A stretch of DNA of 39,810 nt from Gammaproteobacteria bacterium (lineage in GTDB: Bacteria; Pseudomonadota; Gammaproteobacteria; Thiohalomonadales; Thiohalomonadaceae): NCBI GenBank assembly GCA_026196275.1, contig JAPHTQ010000077.1:1-39810 (forward strand), read 5' to 3'. A model generated the notes under the pieces. It made no database searches and had not been told where the DNA came from. It was given only the letters and a program-made list of their open reading frames with translations. The position numbers and the translations under genes are program-made. Positions within the stretch are counted from its first letter, which is position 1; each line of letters starts with the position of its first letter. Positions 32,730-39,810 of this stretch are shown here, in pieces.

Positions 32730-33656
32730 TCAATTTGAGCTTATAAACATCTCAAACCGCTCAGCCAGTCTTTCTTTATCTGGTTGTGCGTTTTTTCTTT
32801 TCGGCAACAACAAACCACAACCATTATAACTTTTCATAGCCTCAAGGATCATACCATCACTAATCGACATTAACTTTTCACTAACGACAACCTTATAATT
32901 TGGACTAATACCAATCAAATTCCCATCGTATGCCCGGTGATGCAGTCTGCTTAGCGCTATACCATTACTGATTTCAGTTGTACTATTTAAATTGCTATCC
33001 GGTGTTATATGTGCTGCCTCCAATAATTCTGGCACAGGCAACCCAGATACCGCACATTTATTGTCATAAGCATTTAGGACATTCTCTCGAAATGTTGCCT
33101 GAAAAAGGCGAACACGGCTTTCCCTTACAGCATATTTTCTCTCGGGCGCATCTGGCACCTCATATATAAATTCATCATTTGATGATTTGCTTTCATATCG
33201 TGAAACGCCAACAACTACCTCGCAGTACATTTTATCTGGATAAATATTCACAACATAACAAGGCCAGATAGCTTTATATCTTCCAGCACTAACTGCATGG
33301 AAGTAGATGAATGGGCTTCTCGCATCTAGCGCTTCCCATAAGTGCTTATTTCCACCTTTATATGGTTCCCCTTTCTGTAAGGCATACCTAAAATATCCGT
33401 TTTCTTTTTCAGCATCATCGTAAATATTTATGCGACCCTTTCTCGGAACGGTTGTTTTTATACTAAGAAGTCCGCTATCCATTTGCTTGGGCTTAAATAT
33501 CCCACGAGCCCTATTCGCTAATAAAATCGTTTCACCTTTGCATTCGAATCCTTCTTCAATTGCATTCCAGGGTATGTCGTCCTCATAAAACATTTCTAAC
33601 AACCGCATACGCCTGAATGCACTTTCGATTATCACCTTACTTGTAGTACTCACCAT
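32730..33656 (-). CDS. HNH endonuclease with N-terminal recognition-like domain
   Basis: The 308-aa product has an N-terminal domain of the type seen in stand-alone HNH restriction-like nucleases (IPWNAIEEGFECKGETILLANRARGIFKPKQM, then RSPFIYFHAVSAGRYKAIWP) and a C-terminal HNH domain (YDNKCAVSGLPVPELLEAAHI, then ISNGIALSRLHHRAYDGNLIGISPNYKV). GGAGGTGT precedes ATG 33656. Base composition is clearly more AT-rich than the neighbours, which suggests recent transfer. No methyltransferase is adjacent, so a modification-dependent or self-sufficient nuclease is likely. Target unknown. Confidence 0.85.
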   Translation of the reverse strand: MVSTTSKVIIESAFRRMRLLEMFYEDDIPWNAIEEGFECKGETILLANRARGIFKPKQMDSGLLSIKTTVPRKGRINIYDDAEKENGYFRYALQKGEPYKGGNKHLWEALDARSPFIYFHAVSAGRYKAIWPCYVVNIYPDKMYCEVVVGVSRYESKSSNDEFIYEVPDAPERKYAVRESRVRLFQATFRENVLNAYDNKCAVSGLPVPELLEAAHITPDSNLNSTTEISNGIALSRLHHRAYDGNLIGISPNYKVVVSEKLMSISDGMILEAMKSYNGCGLLLPKRKNAQPDKERLAERFEMFISSN

Positions 33657-33670
33657 ACACCTCCCTATTT

Positions 33671-33751
33671 TTATTCTTTTAACTTAATCCGCAACTTCCC
33701 CCCCGTCACCTCGGTCTCTTCCACCACATCGGAAAAGGCTTGCCAAAAGAC
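33671..33751 (-). pseudogene. Orphan 3' end of the gene homologous to 36141-36806
   Basis: On the minus strand a frame ending in TAA (33671-33673) encodes VFWQAFSDVVEETEVTGGKL + RIKLKE, closely matching the last 25 residues of the protein at 36141-36806 (GFWKAFAEGVEEIEVKEGKL + RIKLKE). DNA identity is about 75% by eye over 78 bp. There is no upstream part of the gene: the frame is preceded by a stop and by rhuM sequence. It is the far border of the rhuM-fic segment. Confidence 0.8.
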
Positions 33752-34383
33752 CTACTCTCTTCGTCTTGATGCTTCGCAGCTGCCAAGGGGCAGATGATCT
33801 CGGCGGCGGTCTGTTGGGTGACGGCGTAGAGCAGTTTGTTCTGCACCTCGGCGAAGAACTGCTTGGCGGCGCGGTCGTCGGGACTGTAGTCACTGCTGAG
33901 GGCGAAGAGATCCCGTACCTTTTGATAGAAGCGCTTCTCGCTGGCGCGGATATCGCGGATGCGCGCGAGAAGTTCGTCGAAATAGTCCCACCCGCCGGGG
34001 TTTTTCAGCCGCTCGTCGTCCATCACGAAACCCTTGATCAGGAACTCGCTCAGGTGGGCGGTGGCCCACTGACGGAACTGGGTACCGCGGGGGGAGCGAA
34101 CGCGGTACCCGATGGCGAGGATCATCTCGAGGTTGTAGTGCTTGAGGTTGCGCTTAACGTCACGCCCTCCCTCAGGGCGAACTTGTAAGTAATCCTTACA
34201 AGTTGCCCGCTCCTGCAACTCGTCCTCTTCCAGTATGGCCTTGATATGTTGGGTGATGTTTTGCGGGGTCGTGGCGAATAGATCGGCAATCTCGGCCTGC
34301 GTCAGCCAGACGGTCCCCTCCTCGGCGCGCAGATGGATCTCGGCCTTGCCGTCTTCCGTGCGGTAAAAGATCAATTCACTCAT
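33706..34383 (-). pseudogene. RhuM-family protein, C-terminally truncated
   Basis: The 225-aa product starts well (ATG 34383, AAGGG upstream) and matches RhuM proteins: TVWLTQAEIADLFATTPQNITQHI, the ERATCKDYLQV region, LKHYNLEMILAIGYRVRSPRGTQFRQWA, and KLLYAVTQQTAAEII. The family then continues for another ~100 residues. Here it runs into CPLAAAKHQDEESRSFGKPF + PMWWKRPR, which is out-of-frame sequence of the remnant described at 33671-33751. The C-terminal third is therefore lost. RhuM is a virulence-island-associated protein of unknown function. Confidence 0.82.
34180..34204. repeat. Perfect 10-bp inverted repeat inside the rhuM-like gene
   Basis: AACTTGTAAG (34180-34189) and CTTACAAGTT (34195-34204) are perfect inverted repeats with a 5-nt loop, within the codons for ERATCKDYLQV. 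Such a repeat within a gene is unusual, but coding constraints could explain it. Confidence 0.55.
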
Positions 34384-34640
34384 GCAGCAACCCTTCCTGA
34401 GCGGCTATCTCGATGGAGAAGGAAAGCATTCCCACCAACGTGGATGCACGAACCACAGGCATCACAGGTGTCGGTTATGGGGTATGGCATCCTTTTTCCT
34501 TATTTTCTTCGCAAGAACAAACGGTTACGTGGCGTTATGCTTGGTAACGGTGGATTCTACCTTATCACGCTTGGGCGGGGAATTTGCCTGGCATGGCTGC
34601 CCGGCCTATGGGATGGTGTGCTACTACGCTGGTTCTACCG

Positions 34641-35786
34641 CTATTTGTCGCGGCGATTAAAGATCATAAGGTACTCATGGAACCCGTAGACCCGGTTACG
34701 CTGCTTACCGGTCAGCTCTCTAAGCACACCGTGTTTGACGAAGTCATTTACCAGTGTGCTGGCCGTATTGTGCTTAAGCCCCAACATCTCAGCCACATCA
34801 TTGATACTCACCAACGGCATTTGGTAGAGGTACTGCATAAGCGTCTGCGCGTTCTCCTGACGACGTGTGCTGAAATGGGGTAACACCTCACGCTCCAGTC
34901 GCTCCTTGAGGGCGAGAATATCTTTGAATACCTGAATGGAGTTCTCAGCCGTCTCCTTTACGCCGAACAGGAAGAAGATCAACCACTCTTTCAGCTGGTT
35001 AGCTTGTCGCACTGCCATCAGGCGATCAACGTATTCGGTTTTGTTGCGCTCGAAGTAGTCCGACAGATAGAGAGCCGGTTTGTGCAGCAGGCCGAAGTTG
35101 GCCAGGTAGATGGCGATCATCAGCCTCCCCAGTCGGCCGTTGCCGTCAAGAAAGGGGTGGATGGTCTCGAACTGATAGTGGGCGATAGCAACCTTGATGA
35201 GGTGCGGTACCTGCAGTTCCTCGTTGTGGATGAACTTCTCCAGGTCGCTCATCAACTCAGGTACCTCCTCGTGATGGGGAGGAACAAAGGCGGCATTTTT
35301 GAGGCTAACGCCGATCCAGTTCTGGCTGGCGCGGAACTCACCAGGCAGTTTAGTCTCGCCGCGGACTCCCTGCATCAAAGTCCTGTGGGTATCGCGTAGC
35401 AAACGGTTGGAGAGGGGTAGGGTCTGCAACTGACCGATAGCACCGTTGATAGCCTTGATGTAGTTCTGTACCTCTTCCCAGTCATCGCGCTTCTCTGGAT
35501 CGATGTCCTCCTCGTCGAGCAGGGCCTCCTCCATATTGGTACGGGTGCCCTCAATGCGACTGGATTGAGTCGCTTCCTTGGTAATGTGCATCTTGATGAA
35601 GAAGTCGACGTTAGGCACCAGCTGGGAGAACGCGTTCAGCTCCCCAAGTGCACGATCAGCATCGCTGAGCAAGCGTTGCACCTCTCCGTCCACAACCTCC
35701 CAGGGATGGTTAATGGGCTCGGGAACGAAGCTTTTGTACTCGTACTGTTGCTTGTAGTGCCCTGCCTGGTAGTTATTGATGTCCAT
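34641..35786 (-). CDS. Class II Fic-family AMP transferase with C-terminal winged helix
   Basis: The 381-aa product (ATG 35786, AGGT about 6 nt upstream; in-frame ATG 35825 less likely) has an N-terminal inhibitory helix with SSRIEG ([S/T]xxxE[G/N], Ser75-Glu79), the Fic domain with HPFLDGNGRLGR (His210 to Arg221), and a C-terminal helical and winged-helix region (VSINDVAEMLGLKHNTASTLVNDFVKHGVL). Fic enzymes transfer AMP from ATP to proteins; class II members self-inhibit through the N-terminal helix. The wHTH suggests autoregulation; candidate operators are described at 35808-35915. The 257 bp between this stop and rhuM has no clear gene. Confidence 0.9.
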   Translation of the reverse strand: MDINNYQAGHYKQQYEYKSFVPEPINHPWEVVDGEVQRLLSDADRALGELNAFSQLVPNVDFFIKMHITKEATQSSRIEGTRTNMEEALLDEEDIDPEKRDDWEEVQNYIKAINGAIGQLQTLPLSNRLLRDTHRTLMQGVRGETKLPGEFRASQNWIGVSLKNAAFVPPHHEEVPELMSDLEKFIHNEELQVPHLIKVAIAHYQFETIHPFLDGNGRLGRLMIAIYLANFGLLHKPALYLSDYFERNKTEYVDRLMAVRQANQLKEWLIFFLFGVKETAENSIQVFKDILALKERLEREVLPHFSTRRQENAQTLMQYLYQMPLVSINDVAEMLGLKHNTASTLVNDFVKHGVLRELTGKQRNRVYGFHEYLMIFNRRDK

Positions 35787-35807
35787 TTCTATACCTAAAA
35801 AGGTGGC

Positions 35808-35844
35808 AGTTTTCGATATAGCCAAAAAGTTATGTCTAAAAACT
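35808..35844. promoter_or_regulatory. Fic promoter dyad 1 (AGTTTT...GAYATA half-sites)
   Basis: AGTTTTCGATATAGC (plus strand 35808-35822) faces GTTATGTCTAAAAACT (35829-35844; reverse complement AGTTTTTAGACATAAC). The two half-sites converge on each other 22-58 bp upstream of the fic start codon, the usual place for an operator. Confidence 0.6.
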
Positions 35845-36140: not shown

Positions 36141-36806
36141 CTACTCCTTGAGCTTGATCCTCAGCTTCCCCTCCTTCACCTCGATCTCTTCCACCCCTTC
36201 GGCGAAGGCCTTCCAGAAGCCCCGGTCGCCGTACTCCTGAATCAGGTCGATATTCTTGTTGTTGCCGAGCCAGGCGTTGGGCATGGGCACGCCCCATAAG
36301 CTGACGCCTTTGAGGATGACCACCGGGCGGCCTTCGGTGATGCGCACTTCGGCGCCGGCGGTAAGTTTGAGGGTCTTGCCACCGAGGAGGGGGAGTTCCG
36401 GGTCGAGGGGGACCAGCAGTTTGGCGCTGGCGAGATCCTCGGAGAGGTCAATGACGAGGCGGTGGGCAAGATCGGTGTTCTTGGCCAGCAGGGCGTTGAG
36501 TTCCTTTTCGGTGAGGGCGATCTCGCGGCTGGCGCCTTCTTCGGAGTAGGGCTCGGGGGTGAGCGTAGCCTGCTCGTCGTTTGTCGAACGACGGGCGGTG
36601 GGGTCGAGCCGCTGAAGTTTCTGCTCCAGTACCTGCTCCTCTTTTTGATTGAGGGTGACCGGCTTGAACTCCATGGGGAAGATCGCGAGGTAGACGGCAG
36701 ACAGGGTAATGCCGACCGATAGCACCACGGTAAGGATAATCAGTCCGATCACCTTCCACGGAGAGACAGGTTTGAGCTGGGCGTTTTGTTGGACTTCGGT
36801 GGTCAT
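36141..36806 (-). CDS. Conserved inner-membrane-anchored protein
   Basis: The 221-aa product (ATG 36806, GAGG about 8 nt upstream; ATG 36827 less likely) has one transmembrane helix near the N-terminus (VIGLIILTVVLSVGITLSAVYLAI) and a long extracytoplasmic domain with PYSEEGASREIALTEKELNALLAKNTDL, DLASAKLLVPLDPELPLLGGKTLKL and ILKGVSLWGVPMPNAWLG. The family is conserved and sometimes misnamed arginine N-succinyltransferase; its role is unknown. Divergent from the His-rich lipoprotein gene. Its last 26 codons have a diverged copy at 33671-33751. Confidence 0.8.
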   Translation of the reverse strand: MTTEVQQNAQLKPVSPWKVIGLIILTVVLSVGITLSAVYLAIFPMEFKPVTLNQKEEQVLEQKLQRLDPTARRSTNDEQATLTPEPYSEEGASREIALTEKELNALLAKNTDLAHRLVIDLSEDLASAKLLVPLDPELPLLGGKTLKLTAGAEVRITEGRPVVILKGVSLWGVPMPNAWLGNNKNIDLIQEYGDRGFWKAFAEGVEEIEVKEGKLRIKLKE

Positions 36807-36923
36807 CTTCTGTGCCTCGGGCTGCATAGCGGCGCCCCTGTGTCTGGTTGTTGTTTCTGTCCTGCGGAGTGGTTGGCCTCACCGTCACTCTCTCTTTTTA
36901 ATGTAACCCATCGCTGGCTTCCG

Positions 36924-36939
36924 TTCAGCTTTCGTTCAG
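36924..36939 (+). promoter_or_regulatory. TTCAG-N6-TTCAG direct repeat upstream of the lipoprotein gene
   Basis: TTCAG at 36924-36928 and 36935-36939 (GTTCAG CTTTC GTTCAG) repeat with an 11-bp period, about 52 bp upstream of the start codon at 36992. A TATGGT sequence (36951-36956) lies 11 bp beyond, a plausible -10. The box is in the divergent region shared with the membrane-protein gene. The same box occurs at 37525-37540. Confidence 0.6.
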
Positions 36940-36991
36940 TCATCCCCCCTTATGGTGATTGCCACACTGAACAACCATACGGAGCCACGCC

Positions 36992-37519
36992 ATGAACAAG
37001 TTGATCGTCGTTACCGCCGCCCTCGCCTCGGTCACCCTGCTGAGCGGCTGCAAGCATGTGGTGGTGCACCATGCCCATAGCCCCGCTGTGGTCATCGACA
37101 CCCGCCACCACCACGAGTATCGCGAATATCGCGATGTGCGGGTGATTCGCCATGAAGACCCGCGTGTACGCCACCACGACCATGATCGCGGCCGTCGTGA
37201 GGTGCCACCGGGCCATGCGAAGAAGCGCGTGGTGGTGAAGAAGAAGGTGGTAGTGGTCAAGCCGCCGGTGCGGGACGGCAGGTTCCACCGCGAGGTGGAG
37301 CGCCGCAGCACCCCGCACAAGGAGAAGAAACGCCACGAGAAGCAGAGTCGTCGCAGGGAGCAGCACCCACCGCGCCGTGAAAGGGAACATGAGCGCGAGC
37401 GTGATCGCCGGGACGAAGGGCGTCGCGAGGCGCGTCGTGACGAGAAGCAGGATCGCGGCAGGAAGCGCGGCAAGGAGAAGGAGCAGCACGCCCGCAACCG
37501 TGAAGAGCGGTTTAGATAA
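36992..37519 (+). CDS. His/Arg/Lys-rich outer-membrane-type lipoprotein
   Basis: The 175-aa product has a lipoprotein signal (MNKLIVVTAALASVTLLSGC, lipobox LSGC). The mature part is extremely basic and rich in His, Arg and Lys: CKHVVVHHAHSP, HHHEYREYRDVRVIRHEDPR, VPPGHAKKRVVVKKKVVVV, then RREREHERERDRR repeats. GGAG upstream supports ATG 36992. The EYREYR motif is shared with the next gene. PPGxAKK stretches recall RcnB/CigR-like envelope proteins, but the link is weak. Possible metal or polyanion binding. Preceded by a TTCAG box. Confidence 0.75.
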   Translation: MNKLIVVTAALASVTLLSGCKHVVVHHAHSPAVVIDTRHHHEYREYRDVRVIRHEDPRVRHHDHDRGRREVPPGHAKKRVVVKKKVVVVKPPVRDGRFHREVERRSTPHKEKKRHEKQSRRREQHPPRREREHERERDRRDEGRREARRDEKQDRGRKRGKEKEQHARNREERFR

Positions 37520-37524
37520 ATCGG

Positions 37525-37540
37525 TTCAGCTGCCGTTCAG
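37525..37540 (+). promoter_or_regulatory. TTCAG-N6-TTCAG direct repeat upstream of the second basic protein
   Basis: TTCAG at 37525-37529 and 37536-37540 (GTTCAG CTGCC GTTCAG), the same 11-bp spaced repeat as at 36924-36939, 65 bp before ATG 37606. It lies within 25 bp of the stop of the preceding gene, so the second gene has its own promoter. Confidence 0.6.
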
Positions 37541-37605
37541 CGAACCCTTCATAACCTGACAGCGTACCGGGGCAACTCCGCCCCACTGAAGAAGGAGACA
37601 AGACC

Positions 37606-37980
37606 ATGAAAAAGCGTAATCTCATCACCACCCTCGCCCTCACCGCCGTGATGGGCACCGCCATGGCCCTGCCCGCCACCGCCTCGGCCCACGAGGTGAT
37701 TAAGGAGAAGCGGGTGAAGGTGATCAAGACCAGCGACCGCCATCACGGCGACGTCGACCGCTGGTATGTGGAGCGCCACCGCGAGGTCACCCGCTGGGCG
37801 CCGCCGCGCCACGGTCACAAGCACCGTAAGCATCGCGGTCACGACCGGGGGCACCACTACGGCCACCGCAAGCAGCGTCACGAGTATCGCGAATACCGTC
37901 GGGTGGAGCACGAGCCGGTCTACCGCCAGCGTGACCGCGACGGGGTGCGGGTGCGCATCGACTACGACTTCTGGCTCTGA
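37606..37980 (+). CDS. Secreted His/Arg-rich protein
   Basis: A 124-aa protein with an N-terminal signal peptide (MKKRNLITTLALTAVMGTAM + ALPATASA) and a mature part rich in His and Arg (HGHKHRKHRGHDRGHHYGHRK, then HEYREYRRVEHEPVYRQ, ending VRVRIDYDFWL). It has a strong ribosome site (GAAGGAG). It shares the EYREYR element and the TTCAG-type promoter with the lipoprotein gene. Function unknown; metal chelation, acid buffering or LPS/polyanion binding are possibilities. Confidence 0.75.
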   Translation: MKKRNLITTLALTAVMGTAMALPATASAHEVIKEKRVKVIKTSDRHHGDVDRWYVERHREVTRWAPPRHGHKHRKHRGHDRGHHYGHRKQRHEYREYRRVEHEPVYRQRDRDGVRVRIDYDFWL

Positions 37981-38134: not shown

Positions 38135-38156
38135 CCCTCTCCCCTCGGGGAGAGGG
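38135..38156. terminator. GC-rich hairpin upstream of the PepSY gene
   Basis: CCCTCTCCCC (38135-38144) pairs with GGGGAGAGGG (38147-38156) in the 203-bp gap between the His-rich gene and the PepSY gene. It is similar to the hairpin at 27636-27656. It may end the upstream transcript. No T-run of useful length follows. Confidence 0.5.
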
Positions 38157-38183: not shown

Positions 38184-38468
38184 ATGAAACAGCTCACCAC
38201 CGCGCTACTCCTCACCCTCAGCCTGTTTGCCGCCGCGCCAGGCGCAGTGGCCGCACCGCTGCTGCTGGCTCAGAATGGCAATGCGGTCACCATCGATGAC
38301 CTGACAGGCAAGAACCTCTCACTGGATCAGGCCGTACGCCAGGTCCGGCGGGAGACCGGCGGTCGCATCCTCTCCGCCAGGACGGTGGAAAAGGGGGGCG
38401 TCACGCTGCACCGTATCAAGGTGCTCACCCCGGATAACCGGGTCATCATTTACGAAATCGACCGCTAG
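38184..38468 (+). CDS. PepSY-domain periplasmic protein
   Basis: A 94-aa product with a signal peptide (MKQLTTALLLTLSLFAAAPG + AVA) followed by a PepSY domain (SLDQAVRQVRRETGGRILSARTV, then LHRIKVLTPDNRVIIYEI). Small PepSY proteins are often encoded just before a two-component system in gammaproteobacteria and may modulate the sensor. The gap to the regulator gene is only 7 bp, so cotranscription is expected. Confidence 0.8.
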   Translation: MKQLTTALLLTLSLFAAAPGAVAAPLLLAQNGNAVTIDDLTGKNLSLDQAVRQVRRETGGRILSARTVEKGGVTLHRIKVLTPDNRVIIYEIDR

Positions 38469-38475
38469 GACCGCC

Positions 38476-39153
38476 ATGCGCATTCTGGTGATCGAGGACG
38501 AGGCGGCCCTGCTGTTACAGGTGCGCCGCCGACTCGAGGAGGAGGGCTATACCGTCGACTCCACCGGCGACGGCAAGGAGGGACTCTACCTCGCCAGCGA
38601 GTACCCGGTGGACCTGGCAGTGGTGGACCTGGGCCTGCCCGGCATGCCGGGGCTGGAGATCATCCGCACCCTGCGCGCCGAGGGGCGTGACCTGCCGATC
38701 CTCATCCTCACCGCCCGCGGCAAGTGGGAGGAGAAGGTCACCGGCCTGGAGGCCGGGGCCGACGACTATCTGGTGAAACCCTTTCACATGGGGGAGCTGC
38801 TGGCGCGGGTCAAGGCGCTGCTGCGCCGTGCCGCCGGCACGGCACGCGACGAGCTGGCCTTCGGGCTGCTGCGACTCGACACCACCGGCCAGCGCGTCAC
38901 CCTGGACGGTGCCCCGGTGGAACTGACCGCCTACGAGTACCGCCTGCTGGAGTACCTGGCACGCCACCACGGCAAGGTGATCCCCAAGGCGGAGCTGGCC
39001 GACTACCTCTATCCCCACGACGATGACCGCGACAGCAACGTCATCGAGGTGCTGATCGGGCGACTTCGCCGCAAGATCGACCCCGATAGCCGCACAAAGC
39101 CCATCGAAACCCTGCGCGGTCGCGGCTACCGCTTCACCCTGGAGCCGGCATGA
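38476..39153 (+). CDS. OmpR/PhoB-family response regulator (PhoP/QseB-like)
   Basis: The 225-aa product has a receiver domain with DE acidic pair (VIEDEA), phosphoacceptor Asp51 (LAVVDLGLPGMPG), Thr in LILTARG and Lys in LVKPF, then a C-terminal winged helix (VELTAYEYRLLEYLARHHGKVIPKAELADYLY, SNVIEVLIGRLRRKID, TLRGRGYRF). It overlaps the sensor gene by 4 bp (ATGA). It is a candidate for the nearby TTCAG-N6-TTCAG boxes, because this family binds direct repeats with 11-bp spacing. Confidence 0.93.
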   Translation: MRILVIEDEAALLLQVRRRLEEEGYTVDSTGDGKEGLYLASEYPVDLAVVDLGLPGMPGLEIIRTLRAEGRDLPILILTARGKWEEKVTGLEAGADDYLVKPFHMGELLARVKALLRRAAGTARDELAFGLLRLDTTGQRVTLDGAPVELTAYEYRLLEYLARHHGKVIPKAELADYLYPHDDDRDSNVIEVLIGRLRRKIDPDSRTKPIETLRGRGYRFTLEPA

Positions 39154-39810
39154 GGTCGCTTTCCGCACGCGTCAGCCTCAGTGCCGCGGTGGTATTGGCG
39201 ATCTTCCTCGCCCTCACCGCCCTGGCGCTGGAGCGCGCCTTCGAGGAGAGCGCCCGTTCTTCGATGCGCGAGCGCCTCTTCGCCCAGCTCTACCTGGTCA
39301 TGGCCGCCGCCGAGGTCAGCGACAGCGGCCGGCTGGTGATGCCGGGCCACCTTGCCGAGCCGCGGCTGGAGCTGCCCGGCTCCGGCCTCTACGCCCGCAT
39401 CGGCGACGACAACGGCGAAACCCTGTGGCACTCCCCCTCCGCGGTGGGGCTGGCGCTGCCCGAACCGCCGGCGGAGAGTGGCGGGCTCGCCCGTATCCGC
39501 TTCGACGAGCAGCGCTACTTCCTCGCCGCCCTCGACATCGAGTGGGAGACGGTGAGCGGCAGCGTGCCGCTGCGCTTCAGCGTGATGGAGGACCCCACCA
39601 CCTTTAGCGAACAGATGACCCAGTATCGCCACAGTCTCTGGGGCTGGCTCGGGGGAATGGCGATCCTGCTGCTTATCGCGCTGGCCGGTACCCTCGCCTG
39701 GGGGCTGCGACCGCTGCGTACCGTCGCCGGTGAGGTGCGCGCCATCGAGTCGGGTGAGCAGGAGAGCCTGCAGCGGGACTACCCCAGCGAGATCCGCCGC
39801 CTCACCGACA
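39150..39810 (+). CDS. Sensor histidine kinase, 3' partial
   Basis: ATG 39150 overlaps the regulator stop. The visible 220 residues show a first transmembrane helix (SLSAAVVLAIFLALTALAL), a periplasmic domain of about 130 residues (SVMEDPTTFSEQMTQYRHSL), a second helix (WLGGMAILLLIALAGTLAWGL) and the start of a HAMP-like linker (RPLRTVAGEVRAIESGEQE, then EIRRLTD). The kinase domain lies beyond the window. This topology fits PhoQ/QseC-like sensors that respond to envelope or divalent-cation stress. Confidence 0.88.
   Translation, partial: MRSLSARVSLSAAVVLAIFLALTALALERAFEESARSSMRERLFAQLYLVMAAAEVSDSGRLVMPGHLAEPRLELPGSGLYARIGDDNGETLWHSPSAVGLALPEPPAESGGLARIRFDEQRYFLAALDIEWETVSGSVPLRFSVMEDPTTFSEQMTQYRHSLWGWLGGMAILLLIALAGTLAWGLRPLRTVAGEVRAIESGEQESLQRDYPSEIRRLTD

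Follow-up and report, generated by a model that had tools for sequence, protein, structure and literature searches.

In PhoP-PhoQ of Salmonella and E. coli the operator is a direct repeat of period 11, (T/G)GTTTA-N5-(T/G)GTTTA, and the Salmonella promoters of architecture I (mgtA, phoP, slyB) belong to class II, with 12 nt between the last A of the box and the -10 element (PMC3335776). In DbfQRS of Vibrio cholerae a PepSY gene lies directly 5' of the regulator and kinase genes; such modules are widespread, and DbfQRS itself is switched on by outer-membrane damage and under positive autoregulation (PMC12714742). The BqsR/BqsS system of Pseudomonas aeruginosa (CarR/CarS) also has PepSY proteins encoded beside it; BqsR uses the operator TTAAG-N6-TTAAG, whose downstream pentamer is placed at -35 (PMC4682146), and the sensor helix of BqsS carries the iron-binding motif RExxEN (PMC12666569). 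The cre/blr tag of CreB/BlrA reads TTCAC-N6-TTCAC (PMC4689548). Direct-repeat operators of this form (PhoP, BqsR, CreB) and PepSY-linked two-component modules are, in other words, already known.

The window, i.e. the whole stretch of 39,810 nucleotides analysed here, contains an operon in the order box, lipoprotein, box, cationic His/Arg-rich periplasmic protein, PepSY protein, PhoP-like regulator and kinase. With PhoP-PhoQ it shares the period of 11 and the geometry of the repeat, but the letters are different (GTTCAG-N5-GTTCAG). The best-scoring NCBIfam model of the regulator is PhoP, even though the score of 213 bits stays below the cut-off of 336, and both the sensor model and the ATPase domain are closest to PhoQ; unlike in PhoP-PhoQ, the PepSY and cationic protein genes are part of the operon. 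The likeness to DbfQRS-like modules lies in the small secreted PepSY gene beside the regulator and kinase, found in the window and in its relatives, though with a weak Pfam PepSY match. However, the main text on DbfQRS describes no cationic genes in the operon and does not give the DbfR operator, and DbfQRS controls a large biofilm regulon, whereas a local one is predicted here. In two Photobacterium loci (L141, L143) there is a box-like site, but the list of open reading frames shows no PepSY gene next to the regulator, therefore we do not equate them with DbfR. The boxes resemble the BqsR operator in being repeated pentamers with a 6-nt spacer and the downstream pentamer at -35, but both halves of both boxes read TTCAG instead of TTAAG. 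They differ from the cre/blr tag by one base per half; on the other hand, there is no creD-like gene among the window's open reading frames next to the system, and the CreB model reaches only 158 bits.

The kind of system is thus known, but the GTTCAG-N5-GTTCAG operator seems to be undescribed: neither an exact-string search nor a broader text search for TTCAG in open-licence papers returned a description of TTCAG-N6-TTCAG as an operator. From the comparison follows an operator and promoter rule that can be tested in this clade of PepSY-associated two-component systems, which is widespread and largely unstudied; the rule predicts the targets of the clade genome by genome. It would join a promoter architecture of the PhoPQ type with periplasmic control of the DbfQ type, and it suggests that the output is likely to be a group of uncharacterised polycationic envelope proteins.

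Boxes and operon in the window

Box 1 (TTCAGCTTTCGTTCAG, 36924-36939, plus strand) ends 52 bp 5' of the ATG at 36992, and box 2 (TTCAGCTGCCGTTCAG, 37525-37540, plus strand) ends 65 bp 5' of the ATG at 37606, exactly where the original prediction had placed its two TTCAG-N6-TTCAG sites. Extended by one base (from 36923 in the case of box 1) the repeat becomes GTTCAG-N5-GTTCAG, with the proposed 11-bp period. The two copies in the window compare with 0.04 expected, and none of 100 shuffled sequences had two. The 2.54-Mb genome contains 3 copies as opposed to 1 for the reversed control, i.e. the box is not abundant and its placement is the non-random part. The third copy is found about 450 bp from the C58 regulator, the only close paralogue of the window regulator (approximately 50% identical), which means that 3/3 genomic copies adjoin PepSY-type two-component operons. 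On the other side of box 1 there is a divergent gene of no assigned family (36141-36827), whose place beside the box is kept in two relatives (G010, G016); further upstream, minus-strand genes at 32730-35825 code for an HNH_2 endonuclease, a RhuM-family protein (partial profile match) and a Fic/DOC protein.

A PepSY protein, an OmpR-family regulator and its sensor do follow the secreted genes, as had been noticed, the PepSY assignment being based on a weak match. The PepSY-like periplasmic protein (38184-38468, plus strand, 94 aa) matches PF03413 with an E-value of 0.006, below the cut-off, and is conserved in relatives; by analogy with DbfQ it is probably a modulator of the kinase. The regulator (38476-39153, plus strand, 225 aa) consists of a receiver domain (PF00072, E 7.5e-28) and a Trans_reg_C winged helix (PF00486, E 2e-23), both above cut-off. 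These are the domains of an OmpR/PhoB-type protein, and the predicted operator has the corresponding form, a direct repeat of about one helical turn with spacing-specific enrichment (see below). The kinase gene (39150-39810, plus strand) is cut by the contig end and 220 aa are seen, but the sensor part is complete, and its AlphaFold2 model (mean pLDDT 83) has a PhoQ-like periplasmic fold. Its best single-domain matches are PhoQ sensor domains (Z 10.4-10.5 over 102-111 residues, rmsd 2.8-3.1), most other sensor families score between Z 7 and 9, and CusS sensor domains also occur in the fold list; note that a shared fold does not imply the same signal. The similarity of the ATPase domain to PhoQ was seen in the orthologous kinase of G016. 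The RExxEN motif of BqsS is absent from the window kinase and from its aligned relatives.

Between the 37606 gene and the PepSY gene there is a gap of about 203-204 nt which contains hairpins but no box, therefore transcription from box 2 probably reads through into the PepSY, regulator and kinase genes. This gap counts against our explanation, and its hairpins may weaken the predicted read-through. One strong, nearly perfect hairpin, CCCTCTCCCCTCGGGGAGAGGG (CCCTCTCCCC-TC-GGGGAGAGGG, 38135-38156), is located just before the PepSY gene, and it may modulate read-through into it; its only other match in the genome, with 3 mismatches, is at C7:35032.

Conservation of the box and its spacing to the -10 element

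Orthologues of the regulator (73-87% identical) are present in nine other genomes of Thiohalomonadaceae. GTTCAG-N5-GTTCAG, with 0-2 mismatches, precedes the operon on the same strand in 8/8 of these relatives with complete upstream DNA; the ninth orthologue (G003) lies near a contig end and was left out of this count. As in the window, two boxes precede two secreted genes in G005 and G013. In G010 and G016 the first gene and the first box are absent; the one box at the locus, 5' of the gene orthologous to that at 37606, is letter-identical to box 2.

When genomes of 84,980 species were scanned, 44 loci turned out to have related regulators (best segment 48-69% identical), and 36 others, with distant regulators, served as controls. 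The 44 loci are independent of the origin of the hypothesis. Among the 1024 pentamers, TTCAG (with its complement) ranks first when repeated at a spacing of 6, occurring in 22/44 loci as opposed to 0/36 controls. The best pentamer that does not overlap with TTCAG reaches 9/44 loci at the same spacing, and TTCAG repeated at any other spacing within 0-15 is found in at most 4 of the 44.

The co-occurrence of box and regulator was followed in 229 genomes spread evenly over Gammaproteobacteria, where the box counts are minima. The exact box is present in at least 62 of 87 regulator-positive and at least 30 of 142 regulator-negative genomes (Fisher p = 5e-14); if each family is represented by a single genome the values are at least 44/58 and at least 19/99, respectively (p = 2.5e-12), both tests being only partly corrected for phylogeny. 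Of the 107 boxes listed in regulator-positive genomes, 36 lie at most 4 kb upstream of the regulator (0.14 expected by uniform placement), and 35 of these 36 listed boxes are on the regulator strand. The remaining 71 sit elsewhere, which we count against our explanation. Two sites (G155:C8:394895-394933, upstream of the regulator, and G180:C4:111972-112010) show four successive half-sites at an exact 11-bp period, as for several dimers in line.

Alignment of 46 boxes from 40 loci, made by the box alone without any role of TAnnnT in the choice of boxes, revealed the element TAnnnT, mostly followed by G, exactly 11 nt 3' of the box in 31/46 cases; a spacing of 10 was found in 4 and any other spacing in no more than 2. 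The predicted -10 elements of the window, TATGGT (36951-36956, plus strand) and TAACCT (37552-37557, plus strand), are both at this distance from box 1 and box 2, respectively. Where a good box is lacking, most loci show a variant with one mismatch (e.g. TTCAT, TTCAC), and TAnnnT stands at the same place. Without mismatches the composite of box, 11 nt and TAnnnT occurs only twice in the genome, both times in the window. At one mismatch or less there are the two in the window, one at the paralogous system and one in C72, which is probably a chance match because it lies inside an apparent coding region; with two mismatches there are 19 matches in all as opposed to 10 for the reversed control, i.e. 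largely background. A wider regulon in this genome was rejected, as the matches with at most one mismatch are almost confined to the window and the paralogous system.

Not a single promoter-like site with a sigma-70-like -35 partner was found for the -10 elements of the window. The -10 element is 12 nt away from the last A of GTTCA, as it is from that of the box in the PhoP promoters of architecture I (PMC3335776). The downstream half-site in the -35 region, 11 nt before the -10 element, suggests that the regulator would act as a class II activator. Of the refuting findings named with the original prediction, none that could be checked in the genome and its relatives turned up: the box proved to be rare, located 5' of orthologous genes, associated with the regulator and phased with a -10 element. 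This gives strong support to the view that an OmpR/PhoB-type regulator uses the boxes as paired operators and that they go together with the adjacent one.

Cationic proteins and other genes behind the boxes

The 36992 gene (36992-37519, plus strand, 175 aa) probably encodes a lipoprotein, judging from the lipobox LLSG-C, and its mature form is strongly cationic (pI ~11.2); similar lipoproteins stand behind boxes in L085, L086 and L090. The product of the 37606 gene (37606-37980, plus strand, 124 aa) is a cationic His/Arg-rich periplasmic protein with an ordinary signal peptide and a mature pI of ~10.4. Neither of them belongs to a family above cut-off in Pfam or NCBIfam. The C-terminal tail of the second protein, DGVRVRIDYDFWL, is common to relatives, which otherwise vary greatly; an alternating-hydrophobic tail, recognised by eye, is frequent among them (GVRVRIDYDFWL, LHLSLGYEIVL, LQIRIGYRIDL), and we speculate that it is possibly a beta strand for docking. 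The EYREYR element pointed out earlier is indeed present in both proteins, but it is absent from all orthologues examined, so it was rejected as a conserved, shared functional element.

In other families the gene next to the box codes for a glycine-zipper protein, a small cytochrome c or the PepSY protein itself. A Rick_17kDa_Anti match was confirmed for one of the glycine-zipper proteins, the others were called by sequence pattern. SlyB is itself a glycine-zipper protein. In Salmonella, slyB is an outer-membrane lipoprotein gene and a PhoP target of architecture I (PMC3335776). A box before a small c-type cytochrome gene was seen at or near the regulator locus in L100:3935-4475, L107:4306 and L007:1501, and this pairing hints at a redox link for part of the clade.

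A predicted envelope-stress switch and its alternatives

The explanation we favour, and consider probable, is that the boxes are operators of class II promoters in an autoregulated envelope-stress switch. Because box, promoter spacing and neighbourhood recur across many gammaproteobacteria, it is very probable that the adjacent regulator lands on these boxes. According to this mechanism, the active kinase would phosphorylate the PhoP-like regulator, a dimer of which would bind each GTTCAG-N5-GTTCAG head-to-tail and activate transcription from the -35 position. Promoter 1 would drive the cationic lipoprotein gene, and promoter 2 the gene of the cationic periplasmic protein and probably, via read-through, those of the PepSY protein, regulator and kinase, which would amount to positive autoregulation. 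As DbfQ does with DbfS, the PepSY protein probably keeps the kinase in its phosphatase state; outer-membrane or divalent-cation stress would lift this restraint, leaving the cationic proteins to act on the damaged envelope. We read the locus as a switch with a conserved promoter and varying first genes (cationic, glycine-zipper, cytochrome c or PepSY alone). The envelope and divalent-cation theme is supported indirectly, by the PhoQ-like fold, the PhoP-like promoter geometry and the glycine-zipper proteins at the same place elsewhere. More tentatively, and with considerable doubt, we speculate that a PhoP-like clade in many gammaproteobacterial families keeps an invariant GTTCAG-N5-GTTCAG-N11-TAnnnT cassette with freely exchanged cargo, here low-complexity polycationic proteins that might bridge lipopolysaccharide and replace Mg2+ or lipid A modification, as a protein-based form of outer-membrane repair.

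The two matched boxes could in principle be chance copies or what remains of a gene that was duplicated together with its promoter, an idea suggested by the composition and the EYREYR element common to both cationic proteins, but its probability is negligible. Box conservation, association with the regulator and -10 phasing contradict both origins and bear out the original view that the second box is no chance copy; chance copies were also rejected by the pentamer scan. In addition, the promoter flanks differ outside the box and the -10 element, and there is no significant similarity between the two proteins (best E ~0.02 for a 9-residue match). Repression, or a dual role of the regulator, instead of class II activation has to be considered because the -35 region is partly covered by the operator, so that a protein bound to it can also block the polymerase, and geometry alone is no proof of activation. 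We regard it as quite improbable, given that no independent promoter is visible, i.e. the -10 elements lack sigma-70-like -35 partners, and that the geometry equals that of the class II activators PhoP and BqsR. Somewhat less improbable, but still unlikely, is that the paralogous PepSY-linked C58 regulator is the main binder of the boxes, or shares them with the window regulator, which would make the locus one output of a network common to the two systems. This paralogue adjoins the third exact box of the genome as well as a divergent box with TATACT at +11, and the similar boxes in the divergent promoters on its two sides make cross-talk possible. Across the class, however, the boxes track the window-type regulator and sit just upstream of it, and in the genomes of the family the box co-occurs with the orthologous regulator.

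As to the signal, the kinase might sense a metal (Fe2+, Cu, Zn) instead of outer-membrane or Mg2+ stress, with the His-rich proteins binding metal in the periplasm. The His content of both cationic proteins (about 11-15%) and the precedent of BqsS, which senses Fe2+ in a related PepSY module (PMC12666569), make this a serious alternative, and the CusS domains in the fold list of the sensor model point in the same direction. The proteins are, however, richer in Arg and Lys than in His, the BqsS motif is missing, and elsewhere glycine-zipper proteins or PepSY alone take the place of the His-rich proteins, hence we consider a metal signal the less likely possibility and retain the envelope-stress switch as the preferred reading.

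The paralogous PepSY-regulator-kinase operons have an arrangement of their own: in L091 (G000:C58), L094:4324-4362 and L092:2998-3036 two close boxes on opposite strands are located between divergent operons, and the divergent side in L091 and L094 contains a set of PepSY-like or membrane cytochrome-like proteins.
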